From: Thiohalorhabdus denitrificans
Lineage (GTDB): Bacteria; Pseudomonadota; Gammaproteobacteria; Thiohalorhabdales; Thiohalorhabdaceae
Direction of reading: 5' to 3'
Length of the DNA: 64,000 nt
Assembly (NCBI RefSeq): GCF_001399755.1
Contig: NZ_LJCP01000014.1
Span: 248,001-312,000, forward strand
The position numbers and the translations under genes were made by a program. Each line of letters opens with the position of its first letter. Within the stretch, counting starts at the first letter, position 1. Shown here in pieces: positions 42,793 to 49,412 of the stretch. The notes beneath the pieces are model-generated. The model searched no databases, was not told the origin of the DNA, and saw only the letters and a program-made list of their open reading frames with translations.

Positions 42793-42959
42793 GGGTTCGG
42801 GGTAACCGTCCGGACATTTCCGGACACCATCGGCGCCCAGCTTACAGGGCGAGAACGGGTTTGCGCATACCGGCCTTTGCCCCCGGCCCCGGGCCTTTTA
42901 TGGTGGGAATACCCCCTTGGGCGGGCCCATTCTGCCACCAAGCAACGCCAGGAGCCCTC

Positions 42960-45383
42960 ATGCCCGGACCCCAGCCCCTGCCACCGGCATCCCTGTACCA
43001 GCGGTGCGATCCCCAGGAGCTATCCTTCCAGACCACCGCGGAGCTGGAGGACCTGGAACGGATCATCGGCCAGGACCGCGCCCTCGACGCCCTGCATTTC
43101 GGGGCGGGCATCCGCAGCGAGGGCTTCAACCTGTTCGTGCTCGGCCCCAACGGCATGGGCAAGCACACGGTGGTCCAGCATTTCCTGGAAGACCGGGCCG
43201 CGCGCGAGCCCGTGCCCCCGGACCGGTGCTACGTGCACAACTTCGAACAGTCCAACCGCCCCCTCCTCCTGGAGCTTCCCCCCGGCAAGGGGGTGCAGCT
43301 GCGCGACGACCTGGACCAGCTGATCGAGGAGCTGCGTACCGCCATCCCGGCCACCTTCGAGAGCGAGGAGAACCAGAGCCGCATCCACGAGATCCAGCAG
43401 GAGTTCAATCAGCGCCAGGAGGAGGCCTTCCAGGAGGTCCAGCAGGAGGCCGAGGAACGCGGAATCACCCTCCTCCAGACCCCCGCCGGGTTCACCTTCG
43501 CCCCGGTGCGCGACGGCGAGGTCCTGGGCCCCGAGGAGTTCCAGAAGCTGGACGAGGAGGAGCGCCACCGCATCGAGGCGGACATCGCCCACCTGCAGGA
43601 GCGCCTGCAATGGGTCCTGCGCCAGGTGCCCAAATGGCGCAAGGAGAGCCAGGAGAAGGCCCAGGAGGTGAACAGGCAGATGGCGGACTTCGCCGTGGGG
43701 CACCTGATCGAGGGCTTCAAGAGCGAATACGCCGATCTACCGGACGTGCGGGCCCACCTGGACGCCATCAAGCAGGATGTGATCGACCACGTGAACACCT
43801 TCCGCCGGGACTCCGCCCAGGAGGAGAGCGAGGAGGACGGGGGCTACGAGGCGCTCCTGCGGCGCTACCGGCTCAATGTCCTGGTGGACAACGGCGGCCA
43901 GCAGGGGGCCCCGGTCCATTACGAGGACCTGCCCACCCACCACCATCTGGTGGGGCGTGTGGAGCACCGCGCCGAGCAGGGCGCCCTGTTCACCGACTTC
44001 CGGCTCATCCGCGAGGGCGCCCTGCACCGCGCCAACGGCGGCTACCTGATCCTGGACATGCGCAAGCTGCTCATGCAGCCCTTCGCCTGGGAGAGCCTGA
44101 AGCGCGCCCTCTACGCCAATGAGATCCGCATCGAGTCCCTGGAGCAGCTCTACAGCTTCCTCGCCACCGTCACCCTGGAGCCCGAGCCGGTGCCCCTGAA
44201 CATCAAGGTGGTGCTGCTCGGCGACCGCTTCCTCTACTACCTGCTGTCCGAGTACGACCCGGACTTCCGGGAGCTCTTCAAGGTGCAGGCGGATTTCGAG
44301 GAGGACTTCGAGCGCAGCACCGAGAACAACGCCTTGTACGCCCAGCTTATCGCCACCCTGGCCAGGCGCGAGGGCCTCCTACCCCTCGACCGCACCGGCG
44401 TAGCCCGGGTCATCGAGCACGCCGCCCGCCTGGTGGAGGACGCCGAGCGCCTCTCCCTGCACAGCGGAAACCTCGCGGACCTGCTCCGCGAGTCCAACTT
44501 CTGGGCCCGGGAGGCCGGGCAGGAGGTAGTCCGGGCCGAGGACGTGCAGACCGCCATCGACAAGCAGACCTACCGCTCCGCCCGCATCCGGGAGCGCCTG
44601 CAGCGCGCCATCCGGAACGACGTGCTGATGATCGACACGGCGGGGAGCAAGGTGGGGCAGATCAACGGCCTCGCCGTGCTGCAGCTCGGCGATTTCGCCT
44701 TCGGCCGCCCCAACCGCATCACCGCCACCGCCCGCCTGGGGGACGGCCAGGTGGTGGACATCGAGCGGGAAGCGGAGCTGGGCGGCAGCATCCACTCCAA
44801 AGGGGTGATGATCCTGTCCAATTTCCTGGCCGCCCGCTATTCCCCCGAGCACCGCCTGTCCCTGTCCGCAAGTCTCACCTTCGAGCAGTCCTACGGAATG
44901 GTGGAGGGCGACTCCGCCTCGGTGGCCGAGCTGTGCGCCCTGCTGTCGGTGCTGGCGGACGCGCCCCTCCGCCAGTCCCTGGCGGTAACCGGCTCCGTGA
45001 ACCAGCACGGCGAGGTGCAGCCCATCGGCGGCGTCAACGAGAAAATCGAGGGCTTTTTCGACGTCTGCAGCCAGCGGGGCCTCACCGGGGAGCAGGGGGT
45101 GGTCATCCCCCGGACCAATGTGGACCACCTGATGCTGCGCGCCGACGTACGCCAGGCCGCCGAGGCGGGCACCTTCGCCATCTACCCGGTCTCCCGCGTG
45201 GACGAGGCCGTGGAGCTGTTCATGGACAGGGAAGCGGGAGCGCGCGACCCCGAAACCGGGCGCTTCCCCTACGGCACGGTCAATCGCCTGGTGGAGCGGC
45301 GGCTGGAGCACTACGCCCAGGTCTATCGCCAGGAGCACGCGGACGGTGACGATCTGTCCGGGGACGGCCAGGAGGATGGCTGA
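42960..45383 (+). CDS. LonB-like ATP-dependent protease (AAA/S16 family)
   Basis: 807 residues. It begins with a bacterial LonB/YcbZ-type N-terminal region (YQRCDPQELSFQTTAELEDL), Walker A FVLGPNGMGKHT, a long helical insertion rich in Glu/Gln (about 120-270), Walker B-like GGYLILDMRKLL, and a C-terminal S16 protease domain. Catalytic Ser652 lies in VEGDSASVAELCALLS and Lys695 in PIGGVNEKIEGFF. Both members of the Ser-Lys dyad are present, so the protease should be active. AGGAG is properly placed. The universal stress gene overlaps its end by eight bases. Confidence 0.93.
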   Translation: MPGPQPLPPASLYQRCDPQELSFQTTAELEDLERIIGQDRALDALHFGAGIRSEGFNLFVLGPNGMGKHTVVQHFLEDRAAREPVPPDRCYVHNFEQSNRPLLLELPPGKGVQLRDDLDQLIEELRTAIPATFESEENQSRIHEIQQEFNQRQEEAFQEVQQEAEERGITLLQTPAGFTFAPVRDGEVLGPEEFQKLDEEERHRIEADIAHLQERLQWVLRQVPKWRKESQEKAQEVNRQMADFAVGHLIEGFKSEYADLPDVRAHLDAIKQDVIDHVNTFRRDSAQEESEEDGGYEALLRRYRLNVLVDNGGQQGAPVHYEDLPTHHHLVGRVEHRAEQGALFTDFRLIREGALHRANGGYLILDMRKLLMQPFAWESLKRALYANEIRIESLEQLYSFLATVTLEPEPVPLNIKVVLLGDRFLYYLLSEYDPDFRELFKVQADFEEDFERSTENNALYAQLIATLARREGLLPLDRTGVARVIEHAARLVEDAERLSLHSGNLADLLRESNFWAREAGQEVVRAEDVQTAIDKQTYRSARIRERLQRAIRNDVLMIDTAGSKVGQINGLAVLQLGDFAFGRPNRITATARLGDGQVVDIEREAELGGSIHSKGVMILSNFLAARYSPEHRLSLSASLTFEQSYGMVEGDSASVAELCALLSVLADAPLRQSLAVTGSVNQHGEVQPIGGVNEKIEGFFDVCSQRGLTGEQGVVIPRTNVDHLMLRADVRQAAEAGTFAIYPVSRVDEAVELFMDREAGARDPETGRFPYGTVNRLVERRLEHYAQVYRQEHADGDDLSGDGQEDG

Positions 45384-46218
45384 GCCCGAAAGCAGCGGCG
45401 ACATCCGACGCATCCTGGTGCTGGTGGACGCCTCCCGCACCAGCCAGGCCGCCCTGGAGGCAGCCGCGGAACTGGCCGCCCGCCACGATGCGGAGCTGGC
45501 CACCCTCTACGTGGAAGAAACGGATCTCCTACGGCTGGCGGGCCTGCCCTTCGCCCGGGAGGTGGGCACCACCTCCGGAGTCAGCCGCCCGCTCAGCTCC
45601 GAGCAGCTGGAGCGGCGCCTCAAGGGGCAGGCCGCCGAGGTGCGCCAGCGCCTGCAGGCCCTGGCGGCCCGGCACCGCATCCGCTGGTCGCTCCAGGTGG
45701 CGCGGGGCCGGGCGGACGCCGTGGCCCTGGCTTGGGCCACCCCCGGGGACCTGCTCGTGGTGGGGAAGACGGGATGGTCGCGCCTGCCCTACAAGCGCCT
45801 GGGCTCCACCCCCCGCGACCTGGTCCGGAAGGCCAACGTCTCGGTAATGGTCTACGCGCCCCCGCCAACCCCCCGACGCCACCCCATCGTCGCCGTGTTC
45901 GACGACCCGCAAAGCGGGCCCCCTACCCTGGCCCTGGCGGCCTACATCGCCCATACCGAGGCAGATACCCTGACGGTGCTCATCCCCGAGGCGGAGGCGG
46001 AACGGCTGGTCCCGGAGGTGCGGCGGTGGCTGGCGGGGCGGGGAGTGGACGCCTCCCTCAAGCTCCTACAAGCCCGGGACCCCGAGGCCCTGACCAACAC
46101 CCTGTCCCGCGAGCGTCTGCAAGCCCTGGTGATCCATCGGAACAGCCCCCTGATCGCCGGGGAGGTCCGCCAGCGGCTCCTGGAATCCCTGGACGTCCCG
46201 GTCGTACTCGTGCCCTGA
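45376..46218 (+). CDS. Universal stress protein with two Usp domains
   Basis: 280 residues. The first Usp domain (about 11-155) has ILVLVDASRTSQAALEAAAE and WATPGDLLVVGKTGWSRLPY; the second (about 165-280) is shorter and diverged (PIVAVFDDPQSGPPTLALAA … VPVVLVP). The G-2xG-9xG(S/T) ATP loop is only partly kept, so nucleotide binding is uncertain. Overlaps the Lon-like gene (ATGGCTGA), which points to coupled expression and a shared stress role. Confidence 0.85.
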   Translation: MAEPESSGDIRRILVLVDASRTSQAALEAAAELAARHDAELATLYVEETDLLRLAGLPFAREVGTTSGVSRPLSSEQLERRLKGQAAEVRQRLQALAARHRIRWSLQVARGRADAVALAWATPGDLLVVGKTGWSRLPYKRLGSTPRDLVRKANVSVMVYAPPPTPRRHPIVAVFDDPQSGPPTLALAAYIAHTEADTLTVLIPEAEAERLVPEVRRWLAGRGVDASLKLLQARDPEALTNTLSRERLQALVIHRNSPLIAGEVRQRLLESLDVPVVLVP

Positions 46219-46617: not shown

Positions 46618-48126
46618 ATGTCATTAGCCAATGTCTTCATGATCGTACCCAGCCCGATCCTGTCGGCGCTGATCTGGATCGTTGTCCTCGCCGTTCTGCT
46701 CTACCTGGCGCGGACACCGGTGCACCGCGTATTCCTCTCCGCCAGCCGCGGCCTGTACCGGGTCCTCCGCCTGTCGGCCTTCTCCGTGCTGCGGGCCGAG
46801 AAGCGCATCGCCGACCGCAACCGGGAGGTGCTGCTGGCCCAGGGCCGCGAGGCCGCCGAGCGCCAGATCGAGCGCGAGTTCGACCGGGTGGACCAGACCG
46901 TCCACCGCGAGCTGGCCGGCTATCCGGAGCTCCACCGCCGGATGACCGAGGAAATCACGGCCATCGAGGAGGAGCACAAGAACAGCCAGGAGGTCCCGCC
47001 CTCCCCGCCGGGCTGGACCGAGGCCGTGGACGCTGTGGCCCGGATCCCCGCCAACGGCGACCCGATGGTGGGCAACGTCCTGGACGACATCCGCAAATCC
47101 CTGGAGAAGGCCCACGAGAAGGCCACCTCCGAATATCGCCGGGCCACGGCGGAGCGCCACAAGCTGCTGGAGCGCATGCGTCCCCACTGGCGGAGCCTGC
47201 AGCAGCAGGTGTCCGATGTGGACAAGACCATCAACAGCCTGCTGGACCGCAGCCGCGCCATCGACCGGCAGATGGAGGAGTACGAGGAGACGGTCCGTGG
47301 CACGGACCGGGCGGTGCGCCGGCTCTCGTCCTCCACCCTGACCCAGTTCTTCATCTCCCTGTTCGTGATGCTGATCGCCATCGGCGGGGCCATCATCAAC
47401 TTCAACCTGATCGCCCGGCCCATGGCGGAGATGGTGGGCGGCACCAACGACCTGGCCGGATTCCGCACCGCCGACATCGCGGCCATGGTAATCATCTTCG
47501 TGGAGGTCTCCATGGGACTGTTCCTCATGGAGTCCATGCGGGTCACGCGGCTGTTCCCGGTGATCGGCTCCCTGAGCGACAAGCAGCGCCACCGCATGGC
47601 CTGGATCACCTTCACCATCCTGTTCGCCCTGGCCTCGGTGGAGGCCGGTCTGGCCTACATGCGCGAGATCCTCATGGAGCAGGAGATGGCCACCCAGGCC
47701 ATCCTGAGCGGGGGCGCGGAAGCGAGCGCGGAATCCTCCGCCGACAGCGTCCGCTGGATCACCACGGCCTCCCAGATGGGCCTGGGCTTCATCCTGCCTT
47801 TCGCCCTGGTGTTCGTGGCCATCCCCCTGGAAACCTTCGTGCAGTCCCTGCGCACCGTGCTGGGCATCGCGGCCATGGGCATCCTGCGCGTGGCGGCCTT
47901 CCTCCTCCGGGTCCTGGGCAGCGGCGCGCGCTACGCCGGCCAACTCCTGGTGGACCTCTATGACCTCCTCATCTTCGCCCCGCTCTGGGTCGAGCATCGG
48001 CTGATGGAGCGGGGTGACGGCGGCGACGGGGAGCAAGGCCAGACGCCGCGGAAGCGCCCAACCTCCGGGCCCAAGGCCGCGAAATCCGCCGGCAAGACCG
48101 AGACCGCCAAGGAGGAGCCCGCATGA
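46618..48126 (+). CDS. Coiled-coil polytopic membrane protein of unknown function
   Basis: 502 residues: one N-terminal helix (about 12-30), a long charged coiled-coil segment (about 50-235, e.g. AEKRIADRNREVLLAQGREA, SEYRRATAERHKLLERMRPH), then about five hydrophobic segments (236-262, 283-303, 323-343, 385-430) and a basic Lys/Thr-rich tail. No known domain is recognised. Its stop overlaps the start of the VWA-like lipoprotein gene by four bases (ATGA), so the two proteins are made together and probably work in one envelope complex. Confidence 0.65.
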   Translation: MSLANVFMIVPSPILSALIWIVVLAVLLYLARTPVHRVFLSASRGLYRVLRLSAFSVLRAEKRIADRNREVLLAQGREAAERQIEREFDRVDQTVHRELAGYPELHRRMTEEITAIEEEHKNSQEVPPSPPGWTEAVDAVARIPANGDPMVGNVLDDIRKSLEKAHEKATSEYRRATAERHKLLERMRPHWRSLQQQVSDVDKTINSLLDRSRAIDRQMEEYEETVRGTDRAVRRLSSSTLTQFFISLFVMLIAIGGAIINFNLIARPMAEMVGGTNDLAGFRTADIAAMVIIFVEVSMGLFLMESMRVTRLFPVIGSLSDKQRHRMAWITFTILFALASVEAGLAYMREILMEQEMATQAILSGGAEASAESSADSVRWITTASQMGLGFILPFALVFVAIPLETFVQSLRTVLGIAAMGILRVAAFLLRVLGSGARYAGQLLVDLYDLLIFAPLWVEHRLMERGDGGDGEQGQTPRKRPTSGPKAAKSAGKTETAKEEPA

Positions 48127-48773
48127 AACGCCTGCTACTCCTACTCCTCGTCCCCGCCGTCCTGGTGCTGACCGGCTGCCCCCGCTCGGCGCCTCCGGAC
48201 CGCGGGGTCTACCTGCTGCTCGACACCTCCGGGACCTACACCCAGGAACTCGACAAGGCCCAGCGGATCATCAGTTACGTGCTGTCGCGCATGAACCCGG
48301 GGGACAACTTCGCGGTCGCCCGCATCGACACGGGCAGCTTCAGCGAGAAGGACATCATTGCCCGGACCACCTTCGACGACCGCCCGAGCAAGACCAACCA
48401 GCAGAAACGCCAATTCCGGGAACAGATCAAGGAATACGTGGAAGGGGTGGAGTCCTCCAGGTACACGGACATCACCGGGGGCATGCTGCAGGGCATCGAG
48501 TGGCTCAACGAGGTGGGTCCGTCCCAGAAGGTGATCCTGGTGTTCTCGGACATGAAGGAGGACCTGCCGGACAACTACGTGCGGGACGTGTCCCTGGAGC
48601 TGTCCGGGATCGAGGTGGCGGCCCTGAACGTGACCAAGCTCCGGAGCGACATCGTCGACCCCCGCAAGTACATGTCCCGCGTGGACAACTGGCGGAAACA
48701 GGTCGAGGACGCCGGGGGCGAGTGGCGGATGATCAACGATTTGGACAATCTAACGGGGTTGTTTTCCGGTTGA
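48123..48773 (+). CDS. VWA-like lipoprotein
   Basis: 216 residues: lipoprotein signal with Cys19 (LVLTGCPRS), then a von Willebrand A-like fold. A metal-site motif is visible as Asp34-x-Ser36-x-Thr38 ([12 protein letters not shown]), with [14 protein letters not shown] and [11 protein letters not shown] supplying the other expected residues. Such domains mediate metal-dependent protein contacts. Translationally coupled to the upstream membrane protein. The periplasmic location of the VWA domain and the membrane partner suggest an envelope assembly or sensing unit, which is inference. Confidence 0.72.
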
Positions 48774-48825: not shown

Positions 48826-49035
48826 ATGAGCGACCACGTCTACAAGGCTATCGAGCTGACCGGATCCTCGCCCAACTCCATGGAGGAGGCGGTCTCCAAC
48901 GCCATCGCCCGGGCCCACAAGACCCTGCACAATCTCCGCTGGTTCGAGGTGGTGGATACCCGCGGGCACATCGAAGAGGGTAGAATCGTCCACTGGCAGG
49001 TAACCGTGAAGGTGAACTTCACCCTGGACGAGTGA
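48826..49035 (+). CDS. Dodecin
   Basis: A 69-residue flavin-binding protein that forms hollow dodecamers. [40 protein letters not shown] and the C-terminal [10 protein letters not shown] strand match the family, including the tryptophan (LRWFEV) that stacks on the flavin. Dodecins store or buffer flavins. GGGAGGAAGC precedes the ATG. Its stop overlaps an in-frame GTG of the next gene. Confidence 0.93.
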
Positions 49036-49046
49036 GCGAGGGGCGC

Positions 49047-49412
49047 ATGAGCGATTCAACCAGCGGAACCCAGGCCCCGGGGGCCGCCTACGCCGGGCAC
49101 TTCTCCGAGCGGGGCTTCCGCAGCCGGGCCCGGGGCTACCTCCGCCGCGCCGGCCGTGAGGTGGGCGAGAAGGTGCTCTTCCTCTACTACACCCTGGATG
49201 AGCCCGAGCTGCCCGCCTGGGCCCGCTCGGTGATCTACGGGGCACTGGGCTACTTCCTGGCGCCGTGGGACGCGGCCCCGGACTTCATCCCGGGAGTGGG
49301 CTACGCCGACGACCTCGGCGTGCTCACCGCGGCCCTGGCCACGGTGGCGGTCCACGTCACCCCCGAGGCCCGGCGACGGGCGCGGGAACAGCTGGACCGC
49401 TGGTTGGGGTAG
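49047..49412 (+). CDS. DUF1232 (YkvA-like) membrane-associated protein
   Basis: About 121 residues. The family core is seen as VGEKVLFLYYTLDE, WARSVIYGALGYFLAPWDAAPDFIPGVGYADDLGVL and ALATVAVHV. YkvA relatives are small membrane-associated proteins of unknown role. ATG with GAGGGG four bases upstream is chosen; an upstream GTG overlapping the dodecin stop would add five residues. A strong terminator follows. Confidence 0.85.
   Translation: MSDSTSGTQAPGAAYAGHFSERGFRSRARGYLRRAGREVGEKVLFLYYTLDEPELPAWARSVIYGALGYFLAPWDAAPDFIPGVGYADDLGVLTAALATVAVHVTPEARRRAREQLDRWLG

Follow-up and report, generated by a model that had tools for sequence, protein, structure and literature searches.

What might two overlapping genes without a named family, one encoding a membrane protein and the other a lipoprotein, do together? 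The question is raised by a locus in the window, the whole 64,000-nucleotide stretch of Thiohalorhabdus denitrificans DNA analyzed here. Gene A (46618..48126, forward strand; ATG at 46618, stop at 48126) encodes a 502-residue protein with five transmembrane (TM) helices, and gene B (48123..48773, forward strand; ATG at 48123, stop at 48773) a 216-residue lipoprotein with a VWA domain. Both reading frames are open at these coordinates. The overlap of the second gene with the first, reported in the initial annotation, is found at 48123–48126, where the ATG of B lies on the TGA of A within ATGA. A promoter scan gave no promoter, and two terminator-like sites do not score above shuffled sequences. 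Genes for a LonB-like protease and a universal stress protein lie before A (42861–46218), and genes for a dodecin and a DUF1232 protein come close after B (48826–49412). Among the loci searched, the universal stress protein, dodecin and DUF1232 neighbors recur only at one locus of the same genus (L005, in G001).

Other genomes carry both genes, with identities of 33–78% for A and 30–73% for B, the latter range leaving out one weak 52-residue match. Since the two are conserved and adjacent, the pair is not a product of chance. Among 143 genomes related to that of the window, A was found in 22, B in 22 and both in 21, and the genes are adjacent in 21/21; the exceptions are G074 with A only and G086 with B only, the latter a 52-residue match in a 709-residue frame. 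Similarly, 398 genomes of the phylum gave A in 22, B in 21 and both in 19, again adjacent in 19/19. Here A occurs alone in G257, G074 and G307 (in G307 as a 35-residue fragment at a contig end), and the two B-only cases, G351 and G391, are short, weak matches within long frames. Named genomes, when scanned, yielded 463 relatives of B; in the 80 loci retained from these, A is immediately upstream of B in 77, and the other three (L081, L109, L114) have B at the contig edge. The coupling of the two genes proposed in the initial annotation is borne out, as they are not apart in most genomes in any of these sets. Titles of the records with the pair include Gamma- and Alphaproteobacteria, Mariprofundaceae, Desulfobacterales and Deltaproteobacteria. 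The ATGA overlap (−4) is present in 28 of the 65 loci, out of 77, where the start of B could be assigned. In G146 (L147) both A and B are fragmented and contain stops, as though the two had decayed together. Searches of plasmids and viruses gave no matches, and among the open-licence papers searched nothing was recognizable as the A–B pair.

A conserved third gene beside the pair was considered and rejected, as the flanking genes vary by locus. Among the commonest neighbors are a DUF1249-like frame (named by eye, 19/80 loci) and a fliA homologue, which precedes the pair in L057, L064, L070, L073, L074, L076, L078, L083, L085, L088, L091, L103, L104 and L132; in some of these loci homologues of cheR, cheD and cheB (names by eye) lie upstream. 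The pair could on this account belong to motility or chemotaxis. A comes after the fliA homologue in 14/80 loci, with homologues of cheB and cheD upstream in six of these and of cheR in five (names by eye), and FliG is commoner in genomes with A (17/22 vs 54/121, Fisher p 0.005, uncorrected for kinship or genome size). However, FliG is absent from 5 of the 22 genomes with A, the window's own included, so that A does not occur only with flagella, and most loci have other neighbors. A place in motility or chemotaxis is very improbable.

The initial annotation described the product of B as a VWA-like lipoprotein with a D-T-S-G-T motif, and this description stands in each of its parts. B has a signal peptide with a lipobox ending in Cys19 (codon 48177..48179, forward strand), which is invariant in alignments A1 and A4. 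The sequence D34-T-S-G-T38 (48222..48236, forward strand) is the first motif of a complete MIDAS, made up of D34, S36, T38, T115 (codon 48465..48467, forward strand) and D143 (codon 48549..48551, forward strand); all five residues are kept in 50/50 members of alignment A4. In the B of L018, L180 and L198, D or E stands for MIDAS T38 and S for T115, which makes a variant metal site. The AlphaFold2 model of B, computed with an alignment of relatives, has pLDDT 87 and pTM 0.83. Among solved VWA/I domains, the best Foldseek match is ITIH1 (6fpy, E 1.6e-6), and the top Z is that of ANTXR2/CMG2 (8ft6; Z 15.5, rmsd 2.6, 158 aligned). The profile PF00092 matches B at E 2.4e-4, just under the cut-off, and PF13519 is matched by 35/50 members of the B alignment. 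Judged by the predicted fold together with the predicted metal ligands, B is a MIDAS-type VWA domain. The Pfam scan of its 216 residues finds VWA only, and none of the Cache domains that characterize alpha2delta. From the lipidated Cys to the VWA core the linker spans 6–10 residues in 50/50 members, and Asp occupies position +2 in 0/50.

Searches of Pfam, NCBIfam, PADLOC and PHROGs gave no family above the cut-off for A; the earlier statement that the pair has no named family agrees with these profile searches. The weak matches of A are mostly coiled coils, and those to syntaxin, chemoreceptors, Smc and tape-measure proteins were set aside as coiled-coil matches. The AlphaFold2 model, again with an alignment of relatives, has pLDDT 86.7 and pTM 0.66, and Foldseek returned no match to it at E ≤ 0.001 from the PDB. 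BFVD likewise gave no match at E ≤ 0.001. Generic coiled coils reach Z 8.4 against the model, a score that may reflect only a common arrangement. Family-mean hydropathy reveals five TM segments and a short sixth hydrophobic stretch at 419–429. Long helices are predicted at 32–100, 102–123 and 149–227, between TM1 and TM2. Thus the initial annotation was right to call A polytopic, while its coiled coil of roughly 185 residues proves too short, the helical part comprising about 210 residues.

The topology of A was assigned with the positive-inside rule. By summed family-mean charge, the stretches after TM1 (+4.6) and before TM2 (+1.3), loop 3-4 (+3.6) and the C-terminal part (+2.7) are positive, whereas loops 2-3 (−0.9) and 4-5 (−4.3) are negative. 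From these values we infer that the N-terminus is out, that the charged helical domain of residues 31–241 (46708..47340, forward strand) is cytoplasmic, that loops 2-3 and 4-5 are periplasmic, and that the C-terminus is in. Loop 4-5 (residues 351–379; 47668..47754, forward strand) is assigned to the periplasm by its charges and covaries with B. Periplasmic exposure of A would then be limited to two short loops.

Like MotA/TolQ/ExbB and ZorA, A has a predicted cytoplasmic helical domain that separates TM1 from TM2, and its partner is on the outside; the layout of TolQ has such a domain in the same place. Unlike these proteins, A has five TM helices. At E 0.01 the MotA/TolQ/ExbB family is absent from the Pfam matches of 71 A proteins, no MotA/TolQ/ExbB chain is among the fold matches listed for A, and the ZorA match is weak (E 0.013) and covers only the coiled coil. 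Five TM helices are shared with TTYH and prominin. TTYH1 is the best Foldseek row for A, at a non-significant E of 0.036 and with an alignment rmsd above 35, and Prominin is matched by 1 of the 71 A members (E 0.0052). The large helical part of TTYH is extracellular, whereas that of A is predicted to be cytoplasmic.

A new result concerns A proteins that lack the lipoprotein. Extra A genes were collected from the class (50/369 genomes), the order of G257 (27/194) and the order of G074 (27/54), and their surroundings were fetched. After 9 fragments were dropped and the rest collapsed at 97% identity, there were 189 distinct A proteins. A MIDAS-bearing B accompanies 143 of them (136 with a full MIDAS, 6 with D or E at position 38, and one, L244, with N), a B with a dead MIDAS accompanies one (L137, in G091), and 45 have no adjacent B. 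Two predicted intramembrane residues, E296 in TM3 (codon 47503..47505, forward strand) and E342 in TM4 (codon 47641..47643, forward strand), are both Glu in 143/143 A with a MIDAS-bearing B. Among the 45 solo A, both are kept in one (L215), 43 have lost at least one by substitution, and in L238 the sole difference is a gap in the alignment at 296. The A of L137 has A and G at 296 and 342. When the whole genomes of the 45 solo A were searched, B turned up in 7 (G670, G967, G840, G786, G918, G922, G751), each time, judged by its coordinates, beside another, coupled copy of A. Solo A proteins, without lipoprotein and mostly without the glutamates, are seen for instance at L133, L187, L206, L248 and L260, and no partner gene is common to the solo loci across families.

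The loss reaches beyond the glutamates and is unevenly distributed. Counted in a smaller set of 63 coupled and 39 uncoupled rows, the changes (coupled/uncoupled) amount to 3/37 at V273, 2/27 at Q386, 2/27 at E271, 0/24 at R349 and 0/22 at N261; fewer uncoupled rows are changed at P403 (0/4), G300 (0/7), P394 (0/9), R32 (3/1), D449 (2/2), P268 (1/3), E405 (1/13) and E305 (2/8). Positions at least 95% conserved in coupled A were also scored in 46 uncoupled A, with the half-membrane assignment our own, made from the A model and the charges. Mean loss is 0.51 in the periplasmic half (n=15) vs 0.26 in the cytoplasmic half (n=32; p 0.0023), and the same contrast holds for residues from 240 on (p 0.011). 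The exceptions are P268 and L264, which are kept, and F313 and I402, which are lost. Among the invariants, W133 and Y448 are lost in none of the 46, R32 and R180 in 2% and D449 in 4%. Four polar residues, N261 in TM2 (codon 47398..47400, forward strand), E296, E342 and Q386 in TM5 (codon 47773..47775, forward strand), point 8, 4, 7 and 22 degrees, respectively, from the center of the conserved helix face, a face that reaches significance in TM2 (p 0.001) and TM4 (p 0.0002) but not in TM3 (0.21) or TM5 (0.13). The joint absence of B and of charged residues in the membrane part of A suggests that A and B work as one device.

Such a co-loss could instead be an artefact of fast-evolving solo paralogs of A, in which selection was relaxed and the absence of B and the loss of glutamates were co-inherited in one clade. 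Most solo A do belong to one fast clade with long branches and few independent events. A quick tree of 102 rows has 6 changes of B presence, 3 of them on starred branches, and glutamate loss goes in the same direction in 2.5/3 pairs and never in the opposite one (p 0.25). A careful tree of 80 rows has 3 changes of B presence and gives p 0.5 for E296 alone. The long branches leave placements unsure, and since B was lost in only 3 to 6 independent events, formal phylogenetic support is weak. Nevertheless, uncoupled A keep their other invariants (W133, Y448, R32, R180, D449), and separate losses in genus g161 and in the group of L230, L231 and L233 give the same pattern. In g161 and its kin Microbulbifer hainanensis, the series comprises L124 and L214 (pair present, EE), L215 (no B, EE), L133 (no B, QE) and L229 (no B, QG); a glycerophosphodiester phosphodiesterase-like gene (named by eye) follows in this series. 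An artefact is on balance unlikely, and our reading is firmest where it concerns the pairing and the co-loss.

Co-loss would also be expected if B were a dedicated chaperone or quality-control lipoprotein for the folding, insertion or stability of A, with only the glutamate-bearing A in need of help. Buried charges are costly in a membrane, and solo A have mostly lost them and kept the cytoplasmic invariants; alpha2delta also acts in channel trafficking (PMC6231325). Against a chaperone, the MIDAS is invariant in 50/50 B, which exceeds what this role needs, and the presence of the glutamates in all 143 coupled A argues for a use of their own. We hold the chaperone role to be rather improbable.

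If A and B form one device, they may touch, and covariation across 143 A–B pairs (effective number 96) bears on where. The strongest pairs (A residue first) are D278–P25 and E356–R56, followed by M353–V131, T383–T70, G388–T70 and T359–S55. D278–P25 and E356–R56, both with the A residue in a predicted periplasmic loop, exceed all 60 re-pairings with near relatives. At E356–R56 many rows carry opposite charges, with swaps (ER 26, DK 16, EK 15, KE 3), but RT (15) and NK (4) also occur. Predicted cytoplasmic positions of A covary as well (R227–R56, T33–E104), and M353–V131 has no excess over its own control. Regional enrichment, 20 of the top 40 pairs, was set aside as evidence because a lineage-preserving re-pairing matches it (mean 17.9, maximum 26). 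Deduced from the order of elements, positions 25, 55–56 and 131 of B would lie at strand starts and helix ends, on the pole that faces away from the MIDAS; T70 is at odds with this placement. Docking of the MIDAS on E271 of A as a carboxylate ligand was also considered, and is weakened by replacements of E271 in coupled A (L022, L023, L204) and by covariation that points to the other pole of B.

The sorting of B complicates this picture. In E. coli, a lipoprotein without Asp at +2 goes to the outer membrane. By that rule B is predicted to be in the outer membrane, in conflict with contact to A, since the short linker of B and the short periplasmic loops of A are such that the two could touch only with B at the inner membrane. 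Three resolutions are conceivable: B is retained by A, sorting follows another rule, or there is no contact between A and B. A reading that keeps the rule would place B in the outer membrane, with A as its counterpart in the inner membrane; the two would belong to an assembly that spans the envelope and draws its remaining components from genes elsewhere, and the MIDAS would hold an adhesin, peptidoglycan or an outer-membrane protein. It draws on the lack of Asp at +2 in 50/50 B and on the existence of outer-membrane VWA lipoproteins, among them CglB of Myxococcus. The likeness of B to CglB and its kind, as a lipoprotein with a VWA domain, is by description only, and in contrast to CglB no gliding genes were recognized near the A–B pair. 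This reading is at odds with the predicted cytoplasmic coiled coil and short periplasmic loops of A, the B linker of only 6–10 residues, the lack of a third gene common to the loci, and the top covariation of B, which falls on the periplasmic loops of A. We deem it doubtful. The same idea, an envelope-spanning machine, was suggested in the initial annotation and is not supported: the helical domain of A is on the positively charged, predicted cytoplasmic side, which gives no support to a coiled coil crossing the periplasm, and with such short loops and linker the pair alone is unlikely to reach across it.

The reading we prefer, at somewhat below an even chance, is a single inner-membrane device made up of A and B, in which a polar core would transmit the state of B to the cytoplasmic domain of A. 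B, a lipid-anchored VWA domain, would sit on the periplasmic face of A, probably docked by the VWA pole next to the lipid anchor, and the MIDAS would be left free to bind, in the periplasm, a divalent cation and a ligand. Loop 4-5 and TM5 of A would carry the state of B into the polar cluster from TM2–TM5 (N261, E296, E342, Q386); this cluster is probably a site for an ion, a proton or a metal. The relay would end at the large cytoplasmic helical domain, which would carry a function independent of B. In integrin I domains, binding of a ligand at the MIDAS shifts the far pole of the domain. If B were docked to A by that pole, it would be in a position to transmit ligand binding to TM4, TM5 and the polar core; such a relay, argued by analogy from a docking face that is itself predicted, can only be put forward as what B might do.

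Two described systems offer parallels. In the voltage-gated calcium channel with alpha2delta, a membrane-anchored VWA domain with its MIDAS outside the membrane acts on a polytopic protein, alpha2delta binds a channel loop through its MIDAS, and control of the channel depends on the MIDAS (PMC6231325). The parallel is incomplete, because in alpha2delta the MIDAS itself makes the contact and Cache domains are present, whereas B is a lone VWA domain with covariation at the opposite pole, and because A, unlike the calcium channel, shows no channel fold match. McaA/McaB of magnetotactic bacteria are a gene pair with a periplasmic VWA domain whose functional MIDAS is needed at the cytoplasmic membrane (PMC9512821). 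McaA differs from B in having its own TM and cytoplasmic part and in being tied to magnetosomes; it is set apart by description.

With our study, two hypothetical genes, known from Desulfobacterota-type records and from several proteobacterial classes, become a unit that can be tested at named residues. A more far-reaching possibility, which we advance only tentatively and regard as less likely than not, is that the pair is a new kind of two-protein periplasmic sensor. The MIDAS state of an I-domain-like lipoprotein would be passed by its membrane-side pole to the glutamate pair of A, where it would gate an ion or proton step and drive a cytoplasmic coiled-coil output; the widespread solo subfamily would have dropped the sensor and the glutamates and kept the output. 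The natural solo variants of A are ready-made controls to separate sensing from output. If the coupling of A and B is true, it would show that in bacteria, too, a VWA domain can control a polytopic membrane protein, as is chiefly known for the calcium channels of animals.
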